Source: Acidimicrobiia bacterium (GTDB lineage: Bacteria; Actinomycetota; Acidimicrobiia; Spongiisociales; UBA5794). From it: 38,789 nucleotides of DNA. This document shows positions 9,404 to 37,132 of the stretch, piece after piece (positions within the stretch are counted from its first letter, which is position 1; every line of letters begins with the position of its first letter). The notes below the pieces were generated by a model. The model had not been told where the DNA came from, did no database searches, and worked only from the letters and a program-made list of their open reading frames with translations. The position numbers and the translations under genes are program-made. The stretch is taken from the NCBI GenBank assembly GCA_030066715.1, contig JASJBC010000042.1, forward strand, positions 1 through 38,789, in the 5' to 3' direction.

Positions 9404-10654
9404 ATGGTCACGCAAGACAACGCTGAATGGGTACCAGAGTCGCTGGACACCATGGACCCGGGCCACGAGATGGCCTGCATGTTGTCTGCCATCAACGTCG
9501 ACAACTGCACCGGCTACGACCGGATCCGGGTCCTCAAAGCCCACGAGAAGATGCGTGCGTTCTACTCAGCGCAGCTCTACCAGGACATTGCTGCCGTCGC
9601 CGATGCGGTCGACGCCGAGGACATGACATCCGAGTGCGTCGAAGAGTCGGCAGCGGCGGAGGTCGCTGCCGCGTTGAAATGGACCAGGCGAACCGCCGAC
9701 AGCGAGATGGGCTTTGCGATCGACCTTCGGGACCGTCTTCCCCAGGTATGGCAAGCGCTCATTGCTGGAGATATCGATGAACGCCGGGCCAAGGTGCTGG
9801 TGGCGGGAACCACCCACCTTCCCGAGGACACTGCTCGGGAAGTGGTCGCATCCATCATCGACCGCGCCCATCGCTACACCACTGGGCAACTCCACGCTCG
9901 TCTCCGCAGGCTGTGCCTTGAGACCGACCCCGACGAAGCCGCCTCACGCTACGAGCATGCCGTCGAGCAACGACGGGTGAGCACACAGGCCGACGAATCG
10001 GGCACCGCTCATCTCTTTGGCATTGACCTACCTCCGCACCGGCTCGCCGCCGGGATGAAGCGAATCGACGATCTCGCCAAGTCCCTCCGCCGGCCCGGGG
10101 AAACACGTTCCATCGATCAGCTGCGGGCCGACGTTCTTCTCGATCTCCTCGAAGGCACCGGCGTCGCGTCGGACTCTGGTCGCGGCACAGTGATCATTCA
10201 CACCACACTCGAATCCCTCGCCGAGCTCACCGATCATCCCGGTGAACTGGCCGGCTACGGACCAGTCGTCGCCGACATCTCCCGGCAACTCGCCGCACAG
10301 CAGCACACCGCCGAGTGGCGTTGGGTGGTAGAGGATCCAGAAACCCAGCAACCGCTGGCCATCGGCACCACCCGCCGCCGGCCCAACACCGAGCAGCGCC
10401 GCCTCGTTGAAACCCGCAACCCGACCTGCATCCATCCCGGGTGCCGGATGCCGGCCATGGAATCCGACATCGATCACACCGATCCGTGGTCGCACGGCGG
10501 CCGCACCGACACCGGCAACCTCGCCCCCCTCTGCCGACATCATCACCGTCTCAAGGAGGAGAGCGGGTGGAGCTATAGGCCCGTCGCCAACGGTGACTAC
10601 GTCTTCACCACGCCGCTGGGCCATGCATACACCACGAGCGGGCGATCGCCCTAG
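9404..10654 (+). CDS. DUF222 / HNH endonuclease (13E12-repeat family)
   Basis: A 416-residue protein of the family named from the mycobacterial 13E12 repeats. Residues about 20-300 form the helical DUF222 region, including ALIAGDIDERRAKVLVAGT and a long region rich in charged residues. The C-terminus has an HNH/McrA-type nuclease: CIHPGCRMP, then DIDHTDPWSHGG and NLAPLCRHHHRLK. It holds the paired Cys, the catalytic His of the DIDH motif and the metal-binding His residues. These genes are multicopy and mobile-like in many actinomycete genomes; the target and role are not established. It sits at the right edge of the repeat-containing region. Its stop overlaps that of the convergent lipoprotein gene (10651-10654). 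Confidence 0.92.
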   Translation: MVTQDNAEWVPESLDTMDPGHEMACMLSAINVDNCTGYDRIRVLKAHEKMRAFYSAQLYQDIAAVADAVDAEDMTSECVEESAAAEVAAALKWTRRTADSEMGFAIDLRDRLPQVWQALIAGDIDERRAKVLVAGTTHLPEDTAREVVASIIDRAHRYTTGQLHARLRRLCLETDPDEAASRYEHAVEQRRVSTQADESGTAHLFGIDLPPHRLAAGMKRIDDLAKSLRRPGETRSIDQLRADVLLDLLEGTGVASDSGRGTVIIHTTLESLAELTDHPGELAGYGPVVADISRQLAAQQHTAEWRWVVEDPETQQPLAIGTTRRRPNTEQRRLVETRNPTCIHPGCRMPAMESDIDHTDPWSHGGRTDTGNLAPLCRHHHRLKEESGWSYRPVANGDYVFTTPLGHAYTTSGRSP

Positions 10655-20057: not shown

Positions 20058-21611
20058 ATGAACATGGACGAATTCCGGTCGAGAGCCAGGGACATCGTCA
20101 ACGACCCGACCCTGACCTTTCACCAGCGCAAGCACTATCTGGCGTGGCTCGCCGAGAACGCCCTCGAGTACCCGGCGCTCAGCACGGCGGCCGCGGAAGC
20201 TCTGAACAAGCAGATCATCTGCGATCTGTTCGAGGGCAGTGCCCCCTATCGCGGCCGCTACATCCTGCCGGACTACGGAAAGGCTCTGCGCAACGGATCG
20301 GCTCACCTCGAGTTGGATCCTCCCACCGACCTGGACGAGGCACTGAACTTCCTGCTGATCATGTACACGCAGGTCCCTTCGATCACCGGATACCCCGTCT
20401 ACCTCGGCGACTTCGACAAGATCCTGGCCCCCTATGTCACCGATGCGATCAGCGACGATGACCTTTACAGGAAGCTCGAGCTCTTCTACCGGGCACTGGA
20501 CCGGATGCTCCCCGACGCGTTCGTGCACACCGATCTCGGGCCACACGACAGCCGGATCGCTCGTGCCATCCTGAGGATCGATCGGGAGCTGCTCCAGGTC
20601 GTCCCCAACATCACACTGAAGGTCGATCCTGAGCTGACCCCGGACGATCTGCTCCTCGAAGCCGTTTTGACGGTATTCGAGACGGGCAAGCCCCACTTCG
20701 TGAACCATCCGCTGATGGTGCGCGACCTCGGCGAGGACTACGCGGCGGTGAGTTGCTACAACTCACTGAAGATCGGTGGCGGCTCTCACACCCTGAACAG
20801 GCTCAATCTCAAGGAGGTCGCACTCCTCCATCAGGGTGACATCGACAGCTTCATCGACACCACGCTCCCCCACTATGTGGAGCTGCTTGCGGAGTTGATC
20901 GAAGCTCGCATCCGGTATCTGGTCGAGGAAGCGAAGTTCTTCGAGCACGACTTCCTCGCCGTCGAGGGTCTCATCGAGCTGGACAAGTTCTCTGCAATGT
21001 ACGGCGTGTACGGACTCGCCGAGGCCGTGGATATCCTGATGGAAGCGGCGGGCAAGGACGGCCGGTACGGGCACGATGCCGAAGCCAACGAGCTGTCCTA
21101 TCGGATCACCCGCACGATCGCCGACCTCGTTGCGCAGCGCCCGATGCCCTACTGCGAGGGCAACAACGGCCGTGCCTTCATGCACTCCCAGTCCGGCATC
21201 GACAGCGATCTCGAGGTGACCGCCGGCACACGGGTTCCCATCGGCGAGGAGCCCGAGATGTTCGACCACATTCGGGCCGTCGCTCCCCACCACGATCTCT
21301 TCCCGGCGGGAGTCAGCGACATATTCCACGTCGAGGACACCGTACGTCGTAACCCCTCCGCGATGGTCGATATCATCCGTGGCGCCTTCAGGGAAGGCAT
21401 GCGGGACTTCACGTTCAATCTCGCCACGAACGGATTCATCCGCATTACCGGATACCTGGTCCGGAAGTGCGACGTGGAGCAGTTCGACGAGATGGGCGCC
21501 CGGCACGGCAGCACGACATTTGCGGCCGGGTCGGTGAAGAACTCGCATGTAACGGAGAGATACGTGAAGCGGGTCCTCAGCCGTGAAAGCAGCCCAAGGG
21601 CACCTCAATGA
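20058..21611 (+). CDS. yjjI: YjjI-family glycine-radical enzyme
   Basis: A 517-residue protein matching the size of E. coli YjjI, much shorter than pyruvate formate-lyase or diol dehydratases. The active-site Cys is in DYAAVSCYNSLKIGGG (Cys233). The radical glycine is in GFIRITGYLVRKC, Gly465 of R-I-T-G-Y, near the C-terminus as in all glycine-radical enzymes. The middle carries QRPMPYCEGNNGRAFMHSQS. Its reaction is unknown. The activase gene yjjW follows with 29 bp overlap, so a complete two-gene system is present. A GGAGGA Shine-Dalgarno sits 8 nt before the ATG, and the promoter region has a perfect inverted repeat. The radical is destroyed by oxygen, so expression is probably limited to low-oxygen conditions (inference). 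Confidence 0.93.
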   Translation: MNMDEFRSRARDIVNDPTLTFHQRKHYLAWLAENALEYPALSTAAAEALNKQIICDLFEGSAPYRGRYILPDYGKALRNGSAHLELDPPTDLDEALNFLLIMYTQVPSITGYPVYLGDFDKILAPYVTDAISDDDLYRKLELFYRALDRMLPDAFVHTDLGPHDSRIARAILRIDRELLQVVPNITLKVDPELTPDDLLLEAVLTVFETGKPHFVNHPLMVRDLGEDYAAVSCYNSLKIGGGSHTLNRLNLKEVALLHQGDIDSFIDTTLPHYVELLAELIEARIRYLVEEAKFFEHDFLAVEGLIELDKFSAMYGVYGLAEAVDILMEAAGKDGRYGHDAEANELSYRITRTIADLVAQRPMPYCEGNNGRAFMHSQSGIDSDLEVTAGTRVPIGEEPEMFDHIRAVAPHHDLFPAGVSDIFHVEDTVRRNPSAMVDIIRGAFREGMRDFTFNLATNGFIRITGYLVRKCDVEQFDEMGARHGSTTFAAGSVKNSHVTERYVKRVLSRESSPRAPQ

Positions 21612-22440
21612 TGTAATACGGTTCAGTGCGGTCGACGGACCGGGCAACCGTTTTGTGGTGTTTCTCCAGGGATGCAACTTCAACTGCATCGCCTGTCACA
21701 ACCCGTACACGATCAACGACTGTGACAGCTGTGGCGTCTGCGTGGAGCCGTGCCCCGAAATGGCTCTCTGGTTCGATGGGCACCACCGAGTAGTCGTCGA
21801 CGACGACGTGTGCACGCAATGCGACATCTGCATCCAGGTGTGCCCCCGTGACAGCACCCCGTTGAGCCAGATGATTCGTCTCGACAGCCTGACCCGCCAA
21901 ATCGACGAGGTCTCCCCGTTCATATCCGGTATCACCGTCTCCGGCGGCGAGCCGACGCTACAGGCGGACTTCGTCACCAGCTTGTTCAGTGCGATCAAGT
22001 GCGACGGGAAGCTCAGCCGCTTGACCACTTTTGTGGACTCCAATGGTCACGCCGGCCGCGATGTCTGGGACCGCCTTCTTCCCGTCATGGACGGAGCCAT
22101 GATCGACCTCAAGGCGCTGGATCCCGACACCCATCGCGAGATGACGGGATCCGGCAACGAACTCGTGCTGGAGACGATCCGGTATCTCGCCGAGTGGGAC
22201 CGCTTGTACGAAGTCCGGCTGTTGATGGTTCCCGGCAAGAACGACTCTCCTGAAGCCGTTGCCGCCACCGCCCGATGGCTGTACGACGTCGACCCGGCCA
22301 TGCGAGTCAAGCTCATCGGCTTCCGCCAGCACGGCGTCCGCCCACAGTTCGCCGACATCCCGGAAGCCGACCCGGACCACATGGCCGAGCTGGCCGACAT
22401 TTTGCGCACCACCGGCTTCGCCGATCTCCTGGTGGTCTGA
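21583..22440 (+). CDS. yjjW: YjjW-family glycine-radical enzyme activase (radical SAM)
   Basis: 285 residues. The radical SAM cluster motif is GCNFNCIACHN (Cys31, Cys35, Cys38). It is followed by a ferredoxin-like insert with two 4Fe-4S sets: CDSCGVCVEPCP (47-57) and CTQCDICIQVCP (77-87). The SAM-binding VSGGEPTLQ and later LKALDPDTHREMTG complete the activase fold. It would abstract the hydrogen from Gly465 of the YjjI protein. The GTG start lies within the 3' end of yjjI (29-bp overlap), implying translational coupling and stoichiometric synthesis. Confidence 0.94.
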   Translation: MKAAQGHLNDVIRFSAVDGPGNRFVVFLQGCNFNCIACHNPYTINDCDSCGVCVEPCPEMALWFDGHHRVVVDDDVCTQCDICIQVCPRDSTPLSQMIRLDSLTRQIDEVSPFISGITVSGGEPTLQADFVTSLFSAIKCDGKLSRLTTFVDSNGHAGRDVWDRLLPVMDGAMIDLKALDPDTHREMTGSGNELVLETIRYLAEWDRLYEVRLLMVPGKNDSPEAVAATARWLYDVDPAMRVKLIGFRQHGVRPQFADIPEADPDHMAELADILRTTGFADLLVV

Positions 22441-25296: not shown

Positions 25297-26385
25297 TCAG
25301 GCAGTGCGCAGACCGGTCTTCTGCGCGGCCATCCTGAAGTCGGTTGGGTGCGATGCGTTGTTCAGCGCCTCCTCGAAGGTGATCACGCCATCGCGGAAGT
25401 ACTGAAGAAGGCATTGATCGAACGTCTTCATCCCGTAGTAGGCGCCCTCCGACATGACCTCTTCGAGCCGGTTCGTCAACTCGGGATCCATGATGTAGTC
25501 GAAGGTCCGATCGGTCTCGGTGAGCACTTCCGTAGCCGGGATACGTCCCGAGCCGTCTGCGGCAGACACCAGCCGCTGGCTCACGATCGCCTTGATGTTC
25601 TGCCCAAAACGCAACCTCATCTGATGGTGCCGGTGCGGCTCGAAGACCTCGATGAGCCGCGTCACCGTCTCGACAGCGTCCTTGGTGTACATCGCAGCGA
25701 GAACGAGGTGGCCTGTCTCTGCGGCATAGAGGGCTGCTTCGATCGTCTCGGCATTGCGCAGCTCGCTGACCATGATGACGTCGGGGTCCTGGCGGAGGAT
25801 GCGACGCAGGCCGTCGGCGAAGTTGCCGGTGTCGACGCCGACCTCACGCTGCGAGACGATCGCCATCTTGTCGCGGTGGAGCATCTCGATCGGATCCTCC
25901 AGCGTCACGACGCTCACCCGCCGGGTCGAGTTGATTTCGTCGAGCATTGCGTTGAGGCTCGTGGTCTTCCCGGAGCCCGACGATCCGGTGACTATGACCA
26001 GCCCGCGATCCTGCTTGCAGACACGGCCGACGGCCTCGGGGAGCCCGAGTTCGACAAAGCCTTTGCTGCCGGCAACGACCGCACGCACCACCAGTGCGAT
26101 CGAGCCACGCTGGCGATACACGTTCACCCGGAACCTGCCGAGGCTGGCGGTGCCGTAGCCAAAGTCGGCCTCCCCCTCTTCCTCGAAGATGGCTCGGGTC
26201 TTGTCATCCATCAGGGTCTCTGCCCACTCCCTCGTGTCCTCCGGATTCACCTTGGGAAGCTCAGAGAAGTGGAGATGCCCATCGATTCGGTACGCCGGTG
26301 GTGACCCCACCTTGAGGTGCAGATCGGAGGCCCCGATCTCGGCGAGCTTGCCAAGAAGAGCATCGAGAGTCGGCAGTTGTTCCAT
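25297..26385 (-). CDS. pilT: PilT-type ATPase (type IV pilus retraction)
   Basis: 362 residues. The N-terminal PilT domain (LDALLGKLAEIGASDLHLKVGSPPAYRIDG) is followed by the ATPase core. Walker A is GSSGSGKTT (134-142), with an Asp box around TLEDPIEMLH, a Walker B near DPDVIMVSELRNAETI (a variant of the usual V-G-E-x-R-D) and the TGHLVLAAMYT motif. It would power pilus retraction and twitching. No pilus genes lie near it. The Walker B variation (SELRN for GEMRD) is worth noting. The start is the second ATG (26385), placed 6 nt after GGGGA; the ATG at 26391 is an alternative. Confidence 0.9.
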   Translation of the reverse strand: MEQLPTLDALLGKLAEIGASDLHLKVGSPPAYRIDGHLHFSELPKVNPEDTREWAETLMDDKTRAIFEEEGEADFGYGTASLGRFRVNVYRQRGSIALVVRAVVAGSKGFVELGLPEAVGRVCKQDRGLVIVTGSSGSGKTTSLNAMLDEINSTRRVSVVTLEDPIEMLHRDKMAIVSQREVGVDTGNFADGLRRILRQDPDVIMVSELRNAETIEAALYAAETGHLVLAAMYTKDAVETVTRLIEVFEPHRHHQMRLRFGQNIKAIVSQRLVSAADGSGRIPATEVLTETDRTFDYIMDPELTNRLEEVMSEGAYYGMKTFDQCLLQYFRDGVITFEEALNNASHPTDFRMAAQKTGLRTA

Positions 26386-26406
26386 CGTCATTCCCCGGTC
26401 ACTATC

Positions 26407-26425
26407 GGTGGCGAATCCCGCCACC
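26407..26425 (-). promoter_or_regulatory. Hairpin in the pilT upstream region
   Basis: GGTGGCG, 5 nt, CGCCACC: a perfect 7-bp stem 21 bp before the pilT start on the minus strand. It may influence translation or be an operator. Confidence 0.35.
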
Positions 26426-26579
26426 CTCTGTGGTATCAGTGACGGTATCGGTCGCTGCCGCCACCCACTTGAACGATGCTTGGGCCATTTCCGGGCGGGG
26501 CGGCAGAGGCCCCCCGGGACCCGGTTAACGTGGTCGTTGAACCGCCGCACCGGCGGCACATCGGGCGAGGGACAACCCG

Positions 26580-27365
26580 ATGTGGAGAGGGAATGAGAGA
26601 CTGATGGCGCTTGCCGATCAGCCTGCAACGGTCAGCCAACGCGGACAATGGCCGGGCAGGGTAACGCTGCGCAGAGGGTGGGCCAGAGCGGAGGCACGCC
26701 CCTGGAATGACGATGAGCCCAAGGCGGCTCTTCGTCTGCTTCGTGGTGGGCCCTCATTCCTCGAGGCCTGTGCGTCACGGCTCCTCGACCTCGGAGTGAC
26801 CGGAGTCATGTCGCCACCCCTTCCGCTCAACTCGCAGCGTTCCTGGACTCAGGCCGGCTTTGCGCCTTTCATCGACCTCGCCCTGATGCGAAAGTCGCTC
26901 GAGAACACAACCGGGGCGCCGGACCATCTCGTGGTGGAACGTCCCGATACCGACATCGAGGATCTGCTGAACATCGATGCGGCAGCGTTCCCGCCGTTCT
27001 GGCGTTTCAACCGTGGCGCACTCGAGGAGGCAATCGGGGCGACCTCACGCTCGACGACGCTGACCATTCTCGGCAGCGGAGGAACCCCGATCGCCTATGC
27101 GGTCGTCGGTTTCGGAAGCGCCATCGCCTATCTGCAACGTGTGGCGGTCGAACCCGAGTGGCAGGGCCACGGCATGGGCCGTTCGCTGGTTCGTGTCGTT
27201 GCCAGGAAGGCCAGGTCCTCCGGGGCGAAGGTACTCCTCCTCAACACGCAGATGGACAACCACTCCGCCATCGGCCTCTATGAGGACGAGGGATTCATCC
27301 AACTGCCGGAACCGCTGACGCTGCTGCAATACCCTCCCGAGGAGACAAAACCCCGACCCGGGTAA
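26580..27365 (+). CDS. GNAT-family acetyltransferase
   Basis: 261 residues. The C-terminal half (about 115-245) is the GNAT fold: a DIEDLLNIDAAAFPPFW front helix, then AYLQRVAVEPEWQGHGMGRSLV, where Q/R-x-x-G-x-G/A is the acetyl-CoA loop (EWQGHGMGRSLV), then the NTQMDNHSAIGLYEDEGF C-terminal motif. The N-terminal part is unrelated sequence, about 110 residues. In mycobacteria the corresponding position near mviN holds other genes, so no specific role is claimed. The ATG at 26580 has the better Shine-Dalgarno; 26604 is an in-frame alternative. It is read toward the pseudokinase gene, 13 bp away. Confidence 0.85.
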   Translation: MWRGNERLMALADQPATVSQRGQWPGRVTLRRGWARAEARPWNDDEPKAALRLLRGGPSFLEACASRLLDLGVTGVMSPPLPLNSQRSWTQAGFAPFIDLALMRKSLENTTGAPDHLVVERPDTDIEDLLNIDAAAFPPFWRFNRGALEEAIGATSRSTTLTILGSGGTPIAYAVVGFGSAIAYLQRVAVEPEWQGHGMGRSLVRVVARKARSSGAKVLLLNTQMDNHSAIGLYEDEGFIQLPEPLTLLQYPPEETKPRPG

Positions 27366-27378
27366 TCTCGGCCTCGTA

Positions 27379-28686
27379 GTGGCTCCACAACTCCCCGACA
27401 GATATCAAACACAGGTGCGGCTGGGTCGCGATGGCGACATCGACGAATGGCTCGCCACCGACACTGCGCTCGACCGGCCCGTTCTGGTGCGTGTCCTCGA
27501 TGCCGACGCCAGCCCCGCTCGCGTTGCCGAGTTCGTGACGACAACGCGCGCCGCCGCCACCGTCGAGCATGTGCACCTCGCCGGCGTCTACGAGGTCGCA
27601 GAATCCCCCGCCGGGGGCGCTCACGCAGCCATCGAGTGGAACGGTGGAGTTTCGATCGCCGACCGGCTCGCCGCCGGGGAGACGCTGCCGGTCTCCGAGT
27701 TCCTTCCCAACGCCGCGGGTCTCGCCGAGGGGCTCGCCGAACTCCACGCTGCCGGGGTCATTCATGGAGCCATCGACCCGGGAGCCATAGTGTTCTCCGC
27801 CGCCCACCCGGCGAAGCTCAGCTCGTACGGGCGACGCCGTCTCTCTCACCGTCCCGGCAAGGACACCGTTGCCCTGGCCCGGGCGCTGCGGATTGCGGTC
27901 ACCGGCTCCTCGAGCCCGGCGATCCGACCCTCCCACCTAGTCGACGGGCTGCCCGCCTCCGTAGACGATGCGATCAGGAAAGCTGAAGCCGGGGAGTACG
28001 ACGCCCGCGCCCTCGGTGCGGCCCTGCGCGCCATTCCCTCCACACTGCCCCCATCGCGTCGATCCGGGTGGTCGTGGCGATGGGTGATCCCGGCCGCCAT
28101 GCTCCTCATCAGCGCAGTCGTCATCGCCGGAATCGGGCTGGCCATCGACGTCGACCCCGACTCTCCATTCCTGTTTCCGGCCACTCCCCCGGTGACTCGC
28201 GACGTGACGACGACGGTCACCACGCCGGCGTCGACGACGACAACCCTGCCTGAAGTGGCTCCAGGAGTGCTCAGCGCCGAGCCATCGGTCTACGACCCGT
28301 TTGGCGACCAGAGCGAGCGGGAGCGGGACTTGCCCAACCTCATCGATGGTGACTTCTCCACGACATGGCGGACCGAGCGCTACTTCGATCCGCTCCCCCG
28401 CATCAAGGAAGGTGTCGGGGTGACGTTCCGGGTCAGCGGAGCCCCCGGAGCCGTCGAGATTCGGGCCACGCCGAACACGGGGTATTCCATCCTCTGGGCA
28501 GAGACGATCCCGGCCGACTTCACGTCGTGGGAACCGATCGGCTCCGGCACGGTCTTCGACGCACCGGCGGAGCTGCAACTCCCCGACCGTGACGGTGGTG
28601 TCTGGCTGCTCTGGCTGACCGACCTTCCCGAGCAGGCCGTCGACGAGTTCTTCTCGGAACTCTCGGAAGTCACCTTCTCGGCATGA
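27379..28686 (+). CDS. Membrane-anchored pseudokinase with extracytoplasmic discoidin-like domain
   Basis: 435 residues in three parts. (1) Residues 1-220: Ser/Thr-kinase fold without catalytic residues. The invariant Lys is Arg38 (VLVRVL), the catalytic loop reads VIHGAIDPGAIVF in place of H-R-D, and the DFG motif is SSYG. (2) One membrane helix, about 234-256. (3) An outer domain with a Thr-rich linker (VTTTVTTPASTTTT) and a beta-sandwich typical of F5/8-type C domains (LIDGDFSTTWRTERYFD, then WLLWLTDLPE). The layout equals the C-terminal part of mycobacterial MviN (MurJ), whose pseudokinase recruits the FhaA adaptor to control peptidoglycan synthesis. Here the MurJ flippase part is absent and the gene stands directly before sigM. 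The start is a GTG at 27379. Confidence 0.85.
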   Translation: MAPQLPDRYQTQVRLGRDGDIDEWLATDTALDRPVLVRVLDADASPARVAEFVTTTRAAATVEHVHLAGVYEVAESPAGGAHAAIEWNGGVSIADRLAAGETLPVSEFLPNAAGLAEGLAELHAAGVIHGAIDPGAIVFSAAHPAKLSSYGRRRLSHRPGKDTVALARALRIAVTGSSSPAIRPSHLVDGLPASVDDAIRKAEAGEYDARALGAALRAIPSTLPPSRRSGWSWRWVIPAAMLLISAVVIAGIGLAIDVDPDSPFLFPATPPVTRDVTTTVTTPASTTTTLPEVAPGVLSAEPSVYDPFGDQSERERDLPNLIDGDFSTTWRTERYFDPLPRIKEGVGVTFRVSGAPGAVEIRATPNTGYSILWAETIPADFTSWEPIGSGTVFDAPAELQLPDRDGGVWLLWLTDLPEQAVDEFFSELSEVTFSA

Positions 28687-28718: not shown

Positions 28719-29291
28719 ATGACCAGCCGGGCCGCAGAAGATGTTGCGCTCCTCAATCGCTATCTCGGCGGCGACATGGCCGCCTTCGACGAGCTGGTAC
28801 GAGCTCATGAGGATCGTGTCTTCGCCATTTGCCTCCGCATGATGAGTGATCGCGATGCGGCTCTCGACGCAGTCCAGGAGACGTTTCTCACCGTCTTCCG
28901 CAAAGCCGATCGTTACGAGGCCAAGGCGGCGTTCAGCACCTGGCTCTATCGGGTGACGGTCAACACCTGCTACGACTTGCTGCGCAAGGCGAAACGGCGT
29001 CGCACCGAACCGCTTCCGGAAACCGCCGACCCACCCGACCGGCAGAGCGGCGATGCCTTTGCTGCGGTCGAGCTCCGCCCCGACATCGAGGAGGCCCTGG
29101 CAGCCGTGCCGACAGAATTCCGCTCCGCCGTGGTTCTCGTCGATCTCGAGGGCTTGTCCCTCGAACAGGCCTCGCAGATACTCGATGTCCCGGTCGGAAC
29201 GATCAAGTCACGAGTATTCCGCGGCAGAAAGCAGCTAGCCAAGAGTCTTGGGAACCTCAGAGCGGGTTCGCAACATCAAAGAGACGAATGA
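28719..29291 (+). CDS. sigM: ECF-type RNA polymerase sigma factor, SigM-like
   Basis: 190 residues. Region 2 (AAFDELVRAHEDRVFAICLRMMSDRDAALDAVQETFLTVFRKA) binds the -10 and core polymerase. Region 4 (LSLEQASQILDVPVGTIKSRVFRGRKQLAK) recognises the -35. The position between pseudokinase and trxB equals that of mycobacterial sigM. The stop overlaps the start of the next gene (ATGA at 29288-29291), the usual sigma/anti-sigma coupling. The -10 region before the ATG is poor, so it may be autoregulated by an ECF promoter that I cannot define. Confidence 0.93.
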   Translation: MTSRAAEDVALLNRYLGGDMAAFDELVRAHEDRVFAICLRMMSDRDAALDAVQETFLTVFRKADRYEAKAAFSTWLYRVTVNTCYDLLRKAKRRRTEPLPETADPPDRQSGDAFAAVELRPDIEEALAAVPTEFRSAVVLVDLEGLSLEQASQILDVPVGTIKSRVFRGRKQLAKSLGNLRAGSQHQRDE

Positions 29292-30208
29292 AGATGCACG
29301 AACACGATCAAGAGCTGATCATGGCTCTCGCCGAGGGCACCCTCGACGGTGCCGTCGCGGCCACGGCCGCTGCGGAGATTGCCGCGTGTGGCGAGTGCTC
29401 TGCCGACCTCGAACTGCAGCGCTTCGCTCTCGAGGCGATTGCCGCGGCCCCCGATGTGTACCTGACCGCAACCGAGTCCGCTCAGCTGCACTCGAACCTC
29501 GCGCAGCAGCTGGGTGTCACTGCGCCGGCCCCAGTGCGCCCGCGGCGACGGTTCGCTTGGGCTAGGTGGGCTCCGGTGGCGGGGGTGGCAGCCGTCTTCG
29601 TCCTCCTCGTCGCATTGGGCCCGGGCCTCATGACTGCAGGAGACAGTGACGACGCGAGCGACGAAGTCGTGGCGGGTGTGGCTACGACGGCCGCTACCGA
29701 CTTTGCGGCGACCGAAGCGCCGGCCGCGGAAATGGCCCCGCAGGAGCGCGGCGACGACGCGGCCGATGGTGGGGCGAGCCTCTCCGCGATCGAGGACGCA
29801 GCGGCGACGACCGCAGCTCCGGAGACGACGGCCGCTCCGACCGAGACGACGACGAGCGCGGACAGTGAGGGACTCGAGCACCTCGTCTTCCTCGGCTCCG
29901 TGGAGGAAGTCGACACAGAGGCCCTCGTCGAGCTGCTTGCTGCACGAGACCCGGAGACCTTGGCGCTGTCCGACGACGCAAAGAGTGTCGATCCGTTCTT
30001 CCTCGACTGCCTGCTGGAGACGGCCTCGGCCGAGACCGCAGCCGAACGCGGCATCGTCCCCGAGAGCGTTCCCTTCATCCTCGGCACGGTCACCGACGCC
30101 GCCGGGCAGGAGCTCGTGTTGGTCGCATATGCGCCGGATGACGTCACCGAAACGGTGTTCGTCCTCCACGTCCCCTTTGGCTGCGAGGTCGTGGAGACGC
30201 TGCCCTAG
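29288..30208 (+). CDS. Membrane-anchored anti-sigma factor, RsmA-like
   Basis: 306 residues. N-terminal cytoplasmic region with LIMALAEGTLDGAVAATAAA followed by EIAACGECSADL, in place of the zinc-binding H-x3-C-x2-C of anti-sigma domains; the His position is Glu here. A membrane helix follows at about 93-114 (VAGVAAVFVLLVALGPGLM). Then comes a long extracytoplasmic region with Thr/Glu/Ala-rich low-complexity sequence and a C-terminal domain with two Cys (LDCLLE and FGCEVVE) that may form a disulphide. It should hold the sigma factor at the membrane. The ATGA overlap fits co-translation. Given the trxB-trxA genes just downstream, a redox trigger is plausible, as for other Cys-containing anti-sigma factors, but unproven. 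Confidence 0.85.
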   Translation: MKMHEHDQELIMALAEGTLDGAVAATAAAEIAACGECSADLELQRFALEAIAAAPDVYLTATESAQLHSNLAQQLGVTAPAPVRPRRRFAWARWAPVAGVAAVFVLLVALGPGLMTAGDSDDASDEVVAGVATTAATDFAATEAPAAEMAPQERGDDAADGGASLSAIEDAAATTAAPETTAAPTETTTSADSEGLEHLVFLGSVEEVDTEALVELLAARDPETLALSDDAKSVDPFFLDCLLETASAETAAERGIVPESVPFILGTVTDAAGQELVLVAYAPDDVTETVFVLHVPFGCEVVETLP

Positions 30209-30554: not shown

Positions 30555-31484
30555 ATGACTGAGAAGGTCGTTATCGTCGGCTCGGGACCCGCCGGGCTCA
30601 CGGCCGCCATCTACACGTCTCGCGCCGATCTCTCGCCGTTGATGATCGAGGGGATGGAACGCGGCGGACAGCTCATGCTCACGACCGACGTCGAGAACTA
30701 CCCCGGCTTCCCCGACGGAATTCTCGGCCCGGAGCTGATGGAGGGATTCCGCAAGCAAGCGGAACGGTTCAACACTCGCATCATGAGCTACAACGTGACC
30801 AAGGTCGATTTCTCGCAGCGACCGTTCAAACTGTGGGTCGAGGACGACCTCTACGAGGCGGACACTGTGATCATCTCCACTGGGGCCTCGGCTCGGTGGC
30901 TCGGTCTCGAGAGCGAGACCAGGCTCCGCGGTCACGGGGTCTCGGCGTGTGCGACCTGTGACGGGTTCTTCTTCCGCGGCAAGGAAATCGCCGTGGTCGG
31001 TGGCGGTGACAGTGCCGCCGAAGAGGCCCTCTTCCTCACCAAGTTCGCTTCCAAGGTCTACGTGATCCACCGGCGCGATGAGCTCCGGGCCTCCAAGATC
31101 ATGGCGAACCGTGTTCTGGAGCACGAGAAGATCGAGGTCATTTGGGACACTGTGGTCGAAGAGGTGCTCGGTGATGACGTAGTCACGGGACTGCGGATCA
31201 GAAACCGGGTGACCGAGGAGGTCTCTGAACTCGCCGTCGAAGGCCTGTTCTTGGCCATCGGTCACACCCCCAATACGAAGATCTTCGAGGGCCAGCTGGA
31301 TCTCGACGATCAGGGCTACATCATCATCGGGGAGAACACGATGACATCGGTCCCCGGCGTGTTTGCGGCGGGAGATGTCACCGATCACGTGTACCGTCAG
31401 GCGATCACGGCCGCAGGTATGGGATGTCAGGCCGCGATCGACGCTGAGCGTTGGCTCGACGCAATTGAGGAACAGGAAGGTTAG
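30555..31484 (+). CDS. trxB: Thioredoxin reductase
   Basis: 309-residue flavoprotein that uses NADPH to reduce thioredoxin. FAD-binding [18 protein letters not shown] (residues 7-24), redox-active CATCDG (Cys132/135), NADPH-binding [15 protein letters not shown], and the C-terminal FAD contact [10 protein letters not shown]. Length is typical. The ATG is behind AAGGA. trxA starts 4 bp after its stop, so both are made from one mRNA. Confidence 0.97.
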
Positions 31485-31840: not shown

Positions 31841-32839
31841 GTGAGACTCTATCGACGCGGAGATGATGGAGAGGCGGTCCGGGATATCCAGGACCGTCTC
31901 GCCGCGCTCGGCCACAATACGGAGCCCGACCCGGTCGGCAGCTTTGGCCCCGGCACCTTTGCAGCAGTTTCGGGCTTCCAGAAGAAGCGGGGTCTCTGGA
32001 CGGACGGCATTGTCGGTCCCGACACCTGGCGGGCTCTCGTCAGCGCCGGCTTCACCCTCGGCAGCCGCATCCTCTACCACCGCGTCCCGATGATGCGGGG
32101 CGACGACGTCGCCGAATTGCAACGCCAGCTCAACTCGCTGGGCTTCGACAGCGGCAACGTCGACGGGATCTTTGGCCCGGATACGTTGCGCGGGCTCTTG
32201 GAGTTTCAGTCCAATCGTGGGCTGGCCGAGGACGGGCTCACCGGTGCCGAGGTGGTCCAGGAGCTGAGCCTGATGGCGCGGGCAACGGCGAAACCCGGTC
32301 GCGAGGTCGTGCGCGACCACCAGTGGCTAGTAAATCTTCCCAGCTCGCTTGCCGGGCAACGCATCTACGTCGACACGTTCTGTCGTGACGATGCCGAAGC
32401 CGAGGCAACCTGGGCGCCGGGCGTGTTGCTTTCTACAATCATCCAGGCGCATGGTGCGGCAGTCGTCCTTTCGCGAAGTTCCGATACCACACCAAACGAG
32501 CGGGTGCGGGCCCTACGAGCCAACCGTCTCGGCATCGACGTGGTTGTCTCCATCTGTGCCGCCCGCGACGACGGCGCCGGTGTCTTCTTCTTCGCATCTG
32601 AGCTGAGCAGTTCGCAAGCCGGACGGGCTCTGGCGGAGCTGGTCGCCGCGAGGCTCGACATACCGCACGGGGGCCGGGCGATCCCAATGCTGAAGAACAC
32701 GCGGTCCCCCGCCGTCGTGGTCGCACTCGATGCTTTGTCGGAGCCCGAGATGACTGCAATCGCACAAGGTCTTGTCGATCTCTATGCGACGGATTGGTCG
32801 GAGAGGAACGGGTCGGAGCAGCCTACGGGTGCCGACTAA
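31841..32839 (+). CDS. cwlM: CwlM-like protein: two peptidoglycan-binding domains and an altered amidase_3 domain
   Basis: 332 residues without signal peptide, so cytoplasmic. Two PGB_1 repeats: DDGEAVRDIQDRLAALGH...FGPGTFAAVSGFQ (residues about 8-66) and GDDVAELQRQLNSLGF...FGPDTLRGLLEFQ (87-140). The C-terminal half follows the amidase_3 fold: IYVDTFCRDD, VLSRSSDT, RVRALRANRLGIDVVVSICAA. Both expected zinc His are Cys (181 and 239), and the catalytic Glu of the P-A-V-x-V-E segment is Ala (295). Mycobacterial CwlM at the same position next to trx and par genes is not a hydrolase but an activator of MurA under PknB control, and this protein fits that role. The start is the GTG behind GGGG. The stop overlaps that of parB (4 bp). 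Confidence 0.88.
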   Translation: MRLYRRGDDGEAVRDIQDRLAALGHNTEPDPVGSFGPGTFAAVSGFQKKRGLWTDGIVGPDTWRALVSAGFTLGSRILYHRVPMMRGDDVAELQRQLNSLGFDSGNVDGIFGPDTLRGLLEFQSNRGLAEDGLTGAEVVQELSLMARATAKPGREVVRDHQWLVNLPSSLAGQRIYVDTFCRDDAEAEATWAPGVLLSTIIQAHGAAVVLSRSSDTTPNERVRALRANRLGIDVVVSICAARDDGAGVFFFASELSSSQAGRALAELVAARLDIPHGGRAIPMLKNTRSPAVVVALDALSEPEMTAIAQGLVDLYATDWSERNGSEQPTGAD

Positions 32840-33687
32840 CTGAGCAGCCGGTATATCCGCTCGAGATCGTCCAGAGACGAGTACTTGATTGCGACCTTCC
32901 CACCCCGTTTGCCGTGATCGATTCTCACTGCAGTCCCGAGCCGCTCCCCCAGCCTGTCCTCGAGTTCGATGATCGCGGCGGGTCGTGGCGGCTTCACCCG
33001 GGCCGACTTCGTGGTGGCGGCCGTTCCCGCTCTCTTCTTGACCGCATCCTCGACCTGGCGCACCGACCATCCCTCGGCAACCACCCGCTCGGCGATGTGT
33101 ACGGCGTAGGGCACGTCTTCGATGGCCAGCAGCGCCCGGGCATGCCCCGCGGACAGATCGCCGCGCCCGACCATGCCCTGAATCGGCGCGGGCAACTGCA
33201 GCAGCCGCAACGTGTTTGTTATGGCACTGCGGCTCTTGCCGACCTTGGTGGCCACCTCTTCGTGGGTCAAGCCAAAATCTGTCAGGAGCTGCTGGTAGCC
33301 GGCTGCCTCCTCCAACGGGGAGAGATCCTCGCGCTGCACGTTTTCGATCAAGGCCTCAGCAAGGCTCGCCGACTCCTCACCTGTCTCGGATCTGATGATC
33401 GCCGGGATCTCGGTCAGTTCGGCGATCCGGGCTGCTCGACAGCGGCGCTCGCCTGCGATCAGCACGTAACCCTCTTCCGCCGGGCGCACAACGATCGGTT
33501 GCAGCACGCCCACCTCGGCGATCGAGTCGGCCAGCGATTGCAGCGCCTCGGGATCGAAGTGCTCCCGCGGTTGCTGTGGGTTTGGCTTGATCTCGTCGAG
33601 CTTGATCGTGCTGAATCCTGCCAGGGGATGCTCGACGGGAAGCAGAGAATCGAGCCCTCTCCCCAATCCGCTCTTACGTGCGGCCAT
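32836..33687 (-). CDS. parB: Chromosome partition protein ParB
   Basis: 283 residues. ParB N-terminal CTPase region: LDEIKPNPQQPREHFDPEALQSLADSI and the arginine patch GERRCRAAR. The HTH that binds parS is GLTHEEVATKVGKSRSAITNTLRLL. A C-terminal dimerisation domain follows (LEDRLGERLGTAVRIDHGKRGGKVAIKYSSLDDLERI). It loads at parS, spreads as a clamp and is moved by ParA. The ATG at 33687 lies 5 nt after AGGAGG inside the parA 3' end, so the genes overlap by 14 bp. Confidence 0.95.
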   Translation of the reverse strand: MAARKSGLGRGLDSLLPVEHPLAGFSTIKLDEIKPNPQQPREHFDPEALQSLADSIAEVGVLQPIVVRPAEEGYVLIAGERRCRAARIAELTEIPAIIRSETGEESASLAEALIENVQREDLSPLEEAAGYQQLLTDFGLTHEEVATKVGKSRSAITNTLRLLQLPAPIQGMVGRGDLSAGHARALLAIEDVPYAVHIAERVVAEGWSVRQVEDAVKKRAGTAATTKSARVKPPRPAAIIELEDRLGERLGTAVRIDHGKRGGKVAIKYSSLDDLERIYRLLS

Positions 33688-34453
33688 GACGCCTCCTGAA
33701 CTCCCGGGCCAGTTCTCGATACGAGATAGCCCCACGGGACATTGGATCAAAAGCTTCGATGGGCTCCCCGTAGGACGGCGCCTCGGAGAGTCTCACGGTT
33801 CGGGGAATCACGGTTCGGTAGGTCGTGTCGCCGAAGTGCTCGCGGACCTGAGCGACAACATCGGCGGAGAGTGTCGTCCGCCCGTCGTACATAGTGAGGA
33901 GCACACCCTCGACCTCCAGTTGAGGGTTGAGGCTCTGTTGCACGAGACGGACGTTTCTCATCAGCTGGCTCACCCCCTCGAGTGCGTAGTACTCACACTG
34001 GATGGGGATGAGCACCTCGTCGGCGGCGGCAAGTCCGTTGATCGTCAGCAAACCCAGCGACGGGGGGCAATCGATCAGGATGAAGTCGTACTCCGCAACC
34101 ACCGGCTTGAGCGCCTGCGCCAGCCTCATCTCCCTCGAGAACAGCGAAACCAGCTCGATTTCGGCGCCGGCAAGCTCGATAGTGGCCGGCACCACATAGA
34201 GATCACGAACCGATGTGGGCTCGATGGCATCATCGATCGCCACCTCGTCGATGATCACCTCGTATGTTGAGTACTCGATACCGTTTCGATCGATCCCCAG
34301 CCCCGAGGACGTATTGCCTTGTGGGTCGAGATCTACAAGGAGAACTCGATCACCCTGCATCGCCAGACCGGCTCCAAGGTTGATGGCTGTGGTCGATTTA
34401 CCGACCCCGCCCTTCTGGTTTGCAATCGCAACAACCGTTGCGTTGTCGGTCAT
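33674..34453 (-). CDS. parA: Chromosome partition ATPase ParA
   Basis: 259 residues of the deviant-Walker family. Walker A is ANQKGGVGKSTTAINL with the signature Lys, then LLVDLDPQGN (Walker A') and DFILIDCPPSLG (Walker B). It is a DNA-binding ATPase that moves ParB complexes. Chosen start: ATG at 34453 preceded by AGGAGAG at 5 nt; upstream sequence in frame is rsmG shadow. It starts 16 bp after the rsmG stop. It is in the minus-strand operon and overlaps parB. Confidence 0.95.
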   Translation of the reverse strand: MTDNATVVAIANQKGGVGKSTTAINLGAGLAMQGDRVLLVDLDPQGNTSSGLGIDRNGIEYSTYEVIIDEVAIDDAIEPTSVRDLYVVPATIELAGAEIELVSLFSREMRLAQALKPVVAEYDFILIDCPPSLGLLTINGLAAADEVLIPIQCEYYALEGVSQLMRNVRLVQQSLNPQLEVEGVLLTMYDGRTTLSADVVAQVREHFGDTTYRTVIPRTVRLSEAPSYGEPIEAFDPMSRGAISYRELAREFRRRHGRT

Positions 34454-34469
34454 GGATCTCTCCTGCGGA

Positions 34470-35090
34470 CTAAGTTGCCTCAATCCTAAGGAGGTTCGCA
34501 CCCGTGTCAAGGATTCCGGGGGGCACGGATTCGACTCGGATGAGCAAACCATCCGGTATCTTGGTGGGGATGTCGCCCTCACCGGTGCGGGATAGCGCGA
34601 TAACCGCAACACCGCCCGGAACAAGCAGACGTTTCACGTGAATCATCAGAGTTGCGATCGGGATCGCCGCCCTCGAAACGATCGACTCGACCGGGTCGTC
34701 GATCTCCCTGATGTCGTTCTGCTCGATCCGACAGTTCTCGAGACCGAGGATCGTCACCGCACGACGCATCAGGTCACATCGTCGACCTGATCTGTCCAGG
34801 AGACGGAACTCAACAGCCGGCATGGCAATGGCCAGTGGGATCCCCGGCAGACCTGCACCGCTGCCGATGTCGAGACACTCCCTGCCATCGGCTAGACCGC
34901 AGGCAAACACCAGGGAATCGGCAATGTGTCTGTCCCACAGCCGATTTCGCTCATCCGGGCCGATGCCGCCGGCACGGTGGCCCTCCGATGCAAGCCAATC
35001 GTGATACCGAACGAGCAGCTCTAGCTGGGTCGATCCGAGCTCGATACCGCAATAGCGGGCCGCAGCGACCGCACGCGTTTCGGCCCCCAT
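34470..35090 (-). CDS. rsmG: 16S rRNA (guanine-527-N7) methyltransferase
   Basis: 206 residues. GIGPDERNRLWDRHIADSL is the family motif in the N-terminal part. The SAM-binding CLDIGSGAGLPGIPLAI (D-I-G-S-G-x-G-x-P-G) is followed by DRSGRRCDLMRRAV. It methylates G527 of 16S rRNA, and losing it can give low-level streptomycin resistance. The start is an ATG at 35090, within the palindrome at 35081-35114. A TTG at 35096 in the same frame is an alternative. No Shine-Dalgarno is visible, and translation may be affected by the structure. Confidence 0.93.
   Translation of the reverse strand: MGAETRAVAAARYCGIELGSTQLELLVRYHDWLASEGHRAGGIGPDERNRLWDRHIADSLVFACGLADGRECLDIGSGAGLPGIPLAIAMPAVEFRLLDRSGRRCDLMRRAVTILGLENCRIEQNDIREIDDPVESIVSRAAIPIATLMIHVKRLLVPGGVAVIALSRTGEGDIPTKIPDGLLIRVESVPPGILDTGANLLRIEAT
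34630..34645. promoter_or_regulatory. parS-like site 1, inside rsmG
   Basis: CGTTTCACGTGAATCA matches the parS consensus TGTTTCACGTGAAACA at 14 of 16 positions, with the central 12 (GTTTCACGTGAA) perfect. It lies inside rsmG, 177 bp upstream of the parA start. Confidence 0.72.
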
Positions 35091-35114
35091 GTTCAACGTG
35101 AAACATGGGGGCCG
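35081..35114. promoter_or_regulatory. 34-bp palindrome containing parS-like site 2, over the rsmG start
   Basis: Perfect 13-bp arms CGGCCCCCATGTT (35081-35093) and AACATGGGGGCCG (35102-35114) around an 8-nt loop. The centre (35090-35105) reads TGTTCAACGTGAAACA, 14 of 16 to parS; on the minus strand the left half TGTTTCAC is exact. The GC-rich arms surround the ATG (35090) of rsmG in the gap after khpB. Confidence 0.75.
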
Positions 35115-35127
35115 AAGTTGAGCATGC

Positions 35128-35991
35128 TCAGTCGGCCGGAGCTACAACCACGGAACGGTTTGGCTCTTCGCCTTCGGAGAATGACCTCACACCGTCGATC
35201 TCGGCAATGGCGTCATGGACGACCTTGCGATCGGCAGCGTTCATCGGTTCGAGCATTGCCTCACGACCGTCCTCGATGACGGTCTCCGCAAGACGCCCGG
35301 CATAGATCTTCAGAGCTTCGCGACGACGTGCCGCATATCCGGCGATGTCCAGCCGCATCCGAGGAGCGCCAAATGTCTTTCTCTGGATCACTGTACGGGT
35401 CAGCTCGTGAACAGCCTGGACGACGGCACCCTTTCGACCAACCAGCGCTTCCGTTTGCTCGCCGTTGATATCGACATAGAGGATGTCATCCTCCACACGG
35501 GTCTCCACCACACCGTCGAGGCCAAACGCCTCGAGTAGCCCCTCGGCAAACTCACGTGCGACCTGGGCTTGCTCCTCGATATCCGCTTTGTCCTCGGGCT
35601 TCTTGTCCACGACAACCTTCTTCTTCTCTACTGAGCCGTTCGCTGCCGTCGGCTTCTTCTCCTTCGGACCCCGATCTCTCGAGTCCTTGGGGCCTTTTCT
35701 CCGTTGCTGACTTCCGTTTGGCTTCCCGCCTTTTGCCTTGCGGGACTTGCCATCTCCGGACTTTGACTGACCGTTCTGCGGCTTGCGGCCCTTTGTCCGA
35801 CGGCGCCGTTTCTTCTTTGGCTTGACCGTCACCTTGACCTTGGCCTCACGACCACCCAGACCCAGGAGACCCTTCTTGCCCTCGTCAACCACCTCGATGT
35901 TGACCGCATCCTTTGAGGTCTCGCCGAGGGCGCTCATTGCGGCGTCGACGGCCTCGTCGACAGTCTTCCCGACTGCCTCAACCCACTCCAT
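35128..35991 (-). CDS. khpB: KhpB/Jag RNA-binding protein
   Basis: 287 residues in three parts. The Jag-N domain (EAVGKTVDEAVDAAMSALG...GLLGLGGREAKVKV, about 1-55) is followed by a long Lys/Arg-rich linker of some 80 residues (KPKKKRRRRTKGRK...KKVVVDKK). Then come a KH domain (about 150-210, with ALVGRKGAVVQAVHELTRTV) and an R3H domain (ending NAADRKVVHDAIAEIDGVRSFSEGEEPNR). KhpB works with KhpA as an RNA chaperone linked to cell division and elongation. The position between rsmG and yidC is the standard one. The linker is longer and more basic than in many relatives and probably adds nonspecific RNA binding. It starts 2 bp after the yidC stop. Confidence 0.92.
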   Translation of the reverse strand: MEWVEAVGKTVDEAVDAAMSALGETSKDAVNIEVVDEGKKGLLGLGGREAKVKVTVKPKKKRRRRTKGRKPQNGQSKSGDGKSRKAKGGKPNGSQQRRKGPKDSRDRGPKEKKPTAANGSVEKKKVVVDKKPEDKADIEEQAQVAREFAEGLLEAFGLDGVVETRVEDDILYVDINGEQTEALVGRKGAVVQAVHELTRTVIQRKTFGAPRMRLDIAGYAARRREALKIYAGRLAETVIEDGREAMLEPMNAADRKVVHDAIAEIDGVRSFSEGEEPNRSVVVAPAD

Positions 35992-35993
35992 AC

Positions 35994-36863
35994 CTACTTC
36001 CTCCTGCGCCGGTTGCGCTTCTTGCTGGCGTGTGGTGACGGACCGGTCGTCTTTGGGGTCTCTGGGGGAGCTGCCTCACCCTTGACGGATTTCCCGTCCT
36101 CGTCGTCACCGTCCAAGCGGAAAATGACCGCCTGCTGACCCACACGGAACAAATTCGAGACCGCAAAGTAGAGACCGAGCCCCATCGGGAAACCCCACGA
36201 GATGAACCCCATGAAGAGCGGCATGATCCGCGAGATCATCTGCATTTGCTGGGCCTGTCGGCTCTCGGTCTGACCGTTGTTCTTGTTGCGCCGGGTCGTT
36301 TGATACACCTGGTAATAACTGGTTGCCACGATGGCGAGGACGAGAATGATCGCCGGGATCCCGCCGACAAGCCCGTCGGACACCACCTGTTGTGGCGATT
36401 GCAGCATGTCCAAACCGAGGAATGTGGTGCTCGAGTCCCCGGCCAGCAGCGCATCGGCCAGTTCCGACCCGGCCGGAACGATGTCGCTGGGATCCAAAAC
36501 CGTGGGGTCGTCGGCGCTCGGGCTGGTGCGGAAAACCCTGTACAGGGCGAACCAGATGGGCATCTGCAGAATCAGCGGCAAACACCCTGCCGCCGGATTG
36601 ACGCCGCGCTCCTGATAGAGCGCCATCATCTGCTTGTTCATCTCTTCCCGGTCGTCCTTGTACTCCTTCTGGAGCTTCTTGACCTCGGGCTGAATCTCCT
36701 GCATGGCCTTCATCGAGCGGGTCTGCTTCAAAGTCAGCGGGAAGAGCAAGAGGCTGACCATCAGCGTCAGGATGATGATGGCGACGCCGTAGTTGGGGAT
36801 GAAGTCGTAGAGCCAGGTGAGGAGCTGGCCGAGCGGGGGAGCGAGGACGGTGAAGGGATTCAC
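35994..36863 (-). CDS. yidC: Membrane protein insertase YidC
   Basis: 289 residues, short Gram-positive type. Membrane helices: [56 protein letters not shown] and [20 protein letters not shown]. The cytoplasmic loop between the first two contains [23 protein letters not shown], the substrate-contacting region with the family Arg. A basic C-terminal tail (KKRNRRRRK) binds ribosomes. The start is a GTG at 36863 whose last bases overlap the yidD stop (GTGA, 4 bp); the longer upstream frame is the yidD shadow. Confidence 0.94.
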
Positions 36864-37132
36864 GTGGGATTGCCTTGTGCTGGGGAGGTTTTTTGATTGC
36901 GCGGTGGTACCGGATCGTAGCCGCCGTCGTGCCAAGGGTGACATCGGCCGATGCGCTTTGTCGCCATCCAGCCACCCCGCAAGAACCCATGCGTGCGCAA
37001 TGCCTCTTGCGCATACTCAGAGCAGGTCGGCCGGTACCGGCAGTTATCGCGAAGCAGGGGAGAGATCAATCTGCGATAGAGAGCAATGAGCTTCACCGCC
37101 CAGAAAGAGGGCTGGTATGGCCTGAGCTTCAT
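36860..37132 (-). CDS. yidD: Membrane protein insertion efficiency factor YidD
   Basis: 90 residues: [29 protein letters not shown] followed by [29 protein letters not shown], the three-Cys YidD signature. It helps YidC-dependent insertion. The ATG at 37132 overlaps the rnpA stop by 4 bp (ATGA). Its own stop overlaps the yidC GTG, so translation is coupled along the chain. Confidence 0.93.

Follow-up and report, generated by a model that had tools for sequence, protein, structure and literature searches.

The pseudokinase of mycobacterial MviN is a textbook case of the control of cell-wall synthesis by a dead kinase. In the window, by which we mean the whole stretch of 38,789 nucleotides analysed here (contig JASJBC010000042.1 of an Acidimicrobiia bacterium, order UBA5794), a gene for a pseudokinase of similar build stands by itself, and this raises the questions of which of the two arrangements is the usual one and of what such a protein would do when it is not joined to the flippase.

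A pseudokinase with a membrane helix and an outer domain

The open reading frame at 27379..28686 (+), whose bounds are exact and whose start codon is GTG, encodes a protein of 435 aa, for which the ORF call, the comparison of orthologues and AlphaFold2 together give a pseudokinase, a membrane helix and an outer domain. In the AlphaFold2 model of the whole protein (mean pLDDT 89.6), the kinase fold is followed by one helix (aa 233-255; 28075..28143, +), a linker that is disordered at residues 264-289 and an outer beta-domain. The pseudokinase domain spans aa 1-222 (27379..28044, +), with residues 4-167 aligning with PknB (HMMER, E 2.5e-10) and Foldseek matching the PknB structure 1mru (E 1.3e-14); PknB also ranks first when the whole model is searched by Foldseek. 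When the PDB was searched by sequence, with the protein or a profile, PknB was the top match and the MviN pseudokinase entries were not among the matches listed, so sequence alone does not place the protein nearer to MviN than to PknB.

All three catalytic motifs (Lys, HRD, DFG) are lost. In the alignment with PknB, the position of the ATP-binding Lys is taken by Arg38 (27490..27492, +), which is found in 56/56 orthologues, HRD is replaced by HGA (H129-G130-A131; 27763..27771, +) and DFG by SYG (S149-Y150-G151; 27823..27831, +), while the Asn of HRDxxxxN corresponds to A136 and the helix-C Glu to T55. Asp is absent among the residues listed for the 56 orthologues at positions 131 and 149, and the protein does not carry the active-kinase set of Lys, HRD Asp, Asn and DFG Asp; the inactive domain that the earlier note had read from these motifs is thus borne out by both alignments. 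Most of the activation segment is also gone: counted by eye, 13 residues separate SYG from D162, the next conserved Asp, whereas about 42 lie between DFG and the equivalent Asp of the PknB encoded in this genome. The Gly loop is replaced by D-x-D-x-E-E, and the hinge holds Trp87 (27637..27639, +), which aligns with the EW of the MviN-type tails of the fused proteins and which we take to be the counterpart of MviN W789, the bulky filler of the nucleotide pocket (PMC12599244).

The constancy of Arg38 could mean that it substitutes for the Lys in binding a nucleotide or another small ligand, with signalling by a ligand-driven conformational change, and ActPs2 pseudokinases with the same Lys-to-Arg change have been modelled as ATP binders (PMC12599244). 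We consider this improbable, since the altered Gly loop, the hinge Trp and the missing DFG and helix-C Glu all speak against it, as does the MviN domain, which has a Trp at the presumed same site and does not bind ATP (PMC12599244).

The outer domain (28270..28683, +) has no Pfam match. When it was modelled alone (pLDDT 93.8), Foldseek matched it to F5/8C/CBM32 domains of the PDB (E about 1e-6), and the predicted structure is the F5/8C-CBM32 beta-sandwich (jelly-roll), in agreement with the discoidin-like domain previously proposed; a predicted fold of this type would not in itself prove sugar binding.

Conservation of the locus and the position of murJ

Across 79 loci of the order the same gene arrangement recurs, namely PcnA(-), PilT(-), GNAT, pseudokinase, sigM, small membrane protein, trxB and cwlM-like. 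In the window, the GNAT acetyltransferase gene (26580..27365, +; Pfam and locus comparison; 77/79 loci) lies directly upstream and its stop at 27365 leaves a gap of 13 bp, and the gene for a SigM-type ECF sigma factor (28719..29291, +; profile match and locus comparison; 74/79 loci) follows 32 bp downstream. The sigma gene is overlapped by that of a probable membrane anti-sigma factor (29288..30208, +), which was recognised by sequence reading from a His/Cys motif and one hydrophobic segment and has no Pfam match, and further on are the genes for thioredoxin reductase TrxB (30555..31484, +; TIGR01292) and a CwlM-like protein with two peptidoglycan-binding domains and Amidase_3 (31841..32839, +; domain matches). 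A PilT/T2SSE-type ATPase gene between pcnA and the GNAT gene (25297-26628, -) is retained in 63/79 loci. Just downstream of the region lie parB, parA, gidB, jag and yidC (32836-36944, -), which probably puts the locus close to the origin of replication. Elsewhere in the window we observed a gene for a glycyl radical enzyme of the YjjI type and, after it, one for a radical SAM protein that carries ferredoxin domains (20058-22440), and a DUF222-HNH endonuclease gene (9404-10654), of a kind often repeated in actinobacterial genomes.

Orthologues of the pseudokinase were found in 39 of 41 relatives, stand-alone, near-full-length and 39-85% identical, except for one that is short, probably through a contig end. 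Fifteen positions are invariant in 56 orthologues (R14, G16, D20, W24, D28, R33, P34, L36, R38, E86, W87, G89, H129, D162 and L166). Within the genus, dN is 0.10-0.15 and dS is above 1.4, so near to saturation that the ratio is only a rough one of about 0.1 or less. These values point to strong purifying selection and to a conserved gene, not debris.

The gene occupies the site of the mycobacterial fusion, and it could in that respect be what is left of a fused mviN that was truncated and is decaying. We reject this reading as very improbable, because the orthologues across the order are full-length and stand-alone, selection on them appears to be strong, stand-alone live kinases exist elsewhere, and murJ is a separate and distant gene. 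A fused frame in relatives, which according to the earlier note would mark the gene as a truncation, was not seen; there, murJ is a separate gene, and in the sole case in which it shares a contig with the pseudokinase the two are 120 kb apart. The absence of MurJ from the 13-bp gap and its surroundings extends to the whole order, with MurJ in 0/79 loci within flanks of up to 10 kb (many contigs are shorter) and no MurJ domain in the same chain as the pseudokinase, in the window or across the loci. The genome's own murJ lies in two pieces, each at the end of a contig (G000:C238 and C58), distant from the window and beside an ABC-transporter permease gene, and the two pieces are apparently one unfused gene. 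A third match to the MurJ profile, on C83, was set aside, as it resembles a MATE-type transporter.

One family of the window's order, f8, has kept murJ and lost the pseudokinase, so the gene is dispensable somewhere. In the three f8 loci (L256, L257, L258) the GNAT, sigM, trxB and cwlM-like genes have kept their positions and the pseudokinase is missing; in L256, the one member that was read closely, the slot is occupied by a gene on the opposite strand, named DegV-like by its likeness to neighbours elsewhere.

The MurJ proteins of the order (L242-L252 and G000:C238/C58) are very divergent, on a branch of about 2 changes per site. Their unity with the MurJ of the class is rejected when the long-branched rows of f42 and f49 are included (p-AU 0.001) and is not rejected when these are removed (p-AU 0.40); murJ of this order may have been either moved or replaced. 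Among the other families of the class, murJ is away from the locus in f10, f12 and f18, all with an intact kinase, and is still at the locus in f17; the MurJ proteins of these four families form one clade, so there murJ was moved without being replaced.

The kinase of the sigM slot across the phylum and its descent

The earlier note had equated the protein with the tail of mycobacterial MviN and had taken the fusion as the reference state. The likeness in architecture and locus stands, but the choice of reference does not. A profile of the outer domain matches 146 of 296 genomes from the phylum, and we read 80 regions around such matches. Where sigM, trxB, pcnA or cwlM is near, the match lies mostly directly upstream of sigM, often right after murJ, and the distance from kinase to sigM does not exceed 200 nt in 40 of the 46 sampled loci that have sigM, be the kinase a live one, a dead one, one joined to MurJ or one that has no murJ beside it. 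An intact kinase (Lys, HRD Asp, Asn, DFG Asp) is present at the sigM slot in f19, f27, f42 (2/3) and f49 and, within the window's own class, in f10, f12, f17 and f18, and a degenerate one in f24, f25, f28, f31, f36 (whose genomes are large and of the Streptomyces type), f45, f48 and the window's order. One chain with MurJ is found only in f41, the mycobacterial type, with frames of 1198-1523 aa. Judged from the sampled loci, a kinase of this family accompanies sigM more consistently than murJ, and the MurJ fusion is the exception, the stand-alone protein being usual in the slot upstream of sigM-trxB-cwlM.

Several arrangements differ in detail. In other Acidimicrobiia families (L153-L163) the slot holds a kinase that is intact and has this outer domain, and in several of these loci DUF6049 and/or DegV genes separate the GNAT gene from the kinase and murJ is elsewhere. 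In f24 (L168-L170) the degenerate kinase lies between murJ and trxB, and no sigM was detected. Intact copies also occur outside the sigM locus (f32, f35, f43, f44 and f52); the intact kinases that lie away from it in L184-L191, L209-L216 and L226-L230, with the same outer domain, make up a branch of their own within the receptor-kinase family.

A Trp in the hinge column is common to the window's order, f36 and f41, where all 8 fused proteins carry EW, and outside the order it occurs in 14 of 25 degenerate against 0 of 50 intact kinases. In the free tree, the order is on a long branch, away from its class and near other dead lineages, which is where long-branch attraction would be expected to put it. 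Grouping the order with the active kinases of the class is not rejected for the whole protein (p-AU 0.24), and for the outer domain the same grouping (p-AU 0.59) has a likelihood slightly above that of the free tree. From this and from the shared locus we infer that catalysis was lost separately within Acidimicrobiia; instead, the order may have inherited a dead kinase from one older ancestor that it had in common with f36 and f41, a reading kept in view because of the hinge Trp. Parsimony requires at least five changes between live and dead states when the tree is built from the whole protein and 10 when it is built from the outer domain, the latter tree being weakly resolved; one row, L154, counts as dead only through its cut-off N-terminus. 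Since it is implausible that a dead kinase would regain all of its catalytic residues, the lower bound of five suggests repeated loss.

A receptor kinase was probably the source of the mycobacterial MviN tail, and the order of the window has probably undergone its own kinase death together with the loss of linkage to murJ. A fuller history is possible, and we offer it tentatively: many Actinomycetota would descend from a form in which the slot carried an active receptor kinase of the cell wall. Catalysis would have been lost repeatedly and independently, with the hinge Trp arising in dead lineages that are not related to one another. In the mycobacterial family the protein would have been joined to MurJ, and in UBA5794 it would now be a free pseudokinase whose acidic docking surface is new and works for the SigM system, not for MurJ. 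The relatives of the MviN tail are thus found as separate proteins, many of them catalytically intact, in the same slot, which makes the origin of the tail testable, and live kinases occupy the place where it most likely arose.

Proposed function and comparison with known systems

We propose, with about even confidence, that the protein is a membrane-anchored scaffold or co-receptor, a dead member of an actinobacterial receptor-kinase family that works with the sigM/cell-wall region. Its outer domain would bind cell-wall glycan, and a face of the pseudokinase that includes the invariant D20, W24, R38 and W87, among others, would dock an intracellular partner, either from the PknB-FhaA-CwlM network or from the neighbouring SigM system, so that signalling would proceed without phosphotransfer and without a tie to MurJ.

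The mycobacterial precedent offers a different reading, in which MurJ would be controlled in trans: PknB would phosphorylate a juxtamembrane Thr, FhaA would dock there and the flippase would be restrained. In mycobacteria, a phospho-Thr after the pseudokinase domain recruits FhaA (PMC12599244, PMC6180346, PMC10166564). The shared architecture and locus favour such control, as does the genome's content, since fhaA-fhaB-pstP-rodA-pbpA-pknB is present, with a separate true PknB (apart from FhaA, these proteins were named from sequence reading), along with the CwlM-like protein. The check proposed earlier on murJ and FhaA-like genes yields an unfused, distant murJ and an FhaA; the network exists, yet the known docking site is absent. 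A Thr-Asp/Glu lies at the juxtamembrane place in 8/8 fused proteins, where it is presumably the FhaA docking site, T947 by position, but in the window's order no Thr is conserved there and its frequency is at most 23% at any position from 205 to 235 (56 orthologues). The unlinked murJ and its retention in f8 without the pseudokinase also count against this reading, which is unlikely; with the site absent and the gene lost from one family, the evidence leans against flippase control of the mycobacterial style in this order.

It is more plausible, though still doubtful, that the protein is a sensor of the sigM operon, with the outer domain reading the envelope and the pseudokinase relaying its state to the anti-sigma factor or to SigM. 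The close spacing to sigM whatever the state of the kinase, the presence of SigM in nearly all loci of the order and the kinase-ECF pairs described elsewhere (PMC13147305) are in line with such a sensor, but f8 keeps sigM without the pseudokinase, f24 has the kinase and no detected sigM, and adjacency may mean only shared expression under envelope stress. The window's order is a natural experiment in which a pseudokinase has been freed from murJ, and f8 is one in which it has been deleted.

Among known systems, the PknB PASTA kinases have the closest solved kinase fold by both sequence and structure; unlike them, the protein has neither catalytic residues nor PASTA repeats. The outer domain shares the fold of F5/8 type C and CBM32 domains, with just 13-18% identity in the best structural matches. 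Our literature search found no paper describing the outer domain that these proteins have in common or the members with a live kinase; PMC10166564, in the part drawn on here, gives an annotation only, without either of these or an Acidimicrobiia case. According to the legend of its S6 Fig, a 'protein kinase family protein' is often downstream of unfused mviN; this presumably is the same slot, of which the window's member has lost its murJ neighbour. The literature consulted places extended MviN only in organisms with arabinogalactan. Unlike MviN (Rv3910), the protein of the window has no MurJ part, with murJ elsewhere in the genome, and no Thr-Asp/Glu before its membrane helix, and its motifs are HGA/SYG and VLVR against Lsid/Y-- and VALT in the MviN type. 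It is like the C-terminus of MviN (ActPs3; PDB 3UQC, 3OUN) in being a dead kinase with a short activation segment and a hinge Trp, followed by a membrane helix and a homologous outer domain, and in its position upstream of sigM-trxB-cwlM.
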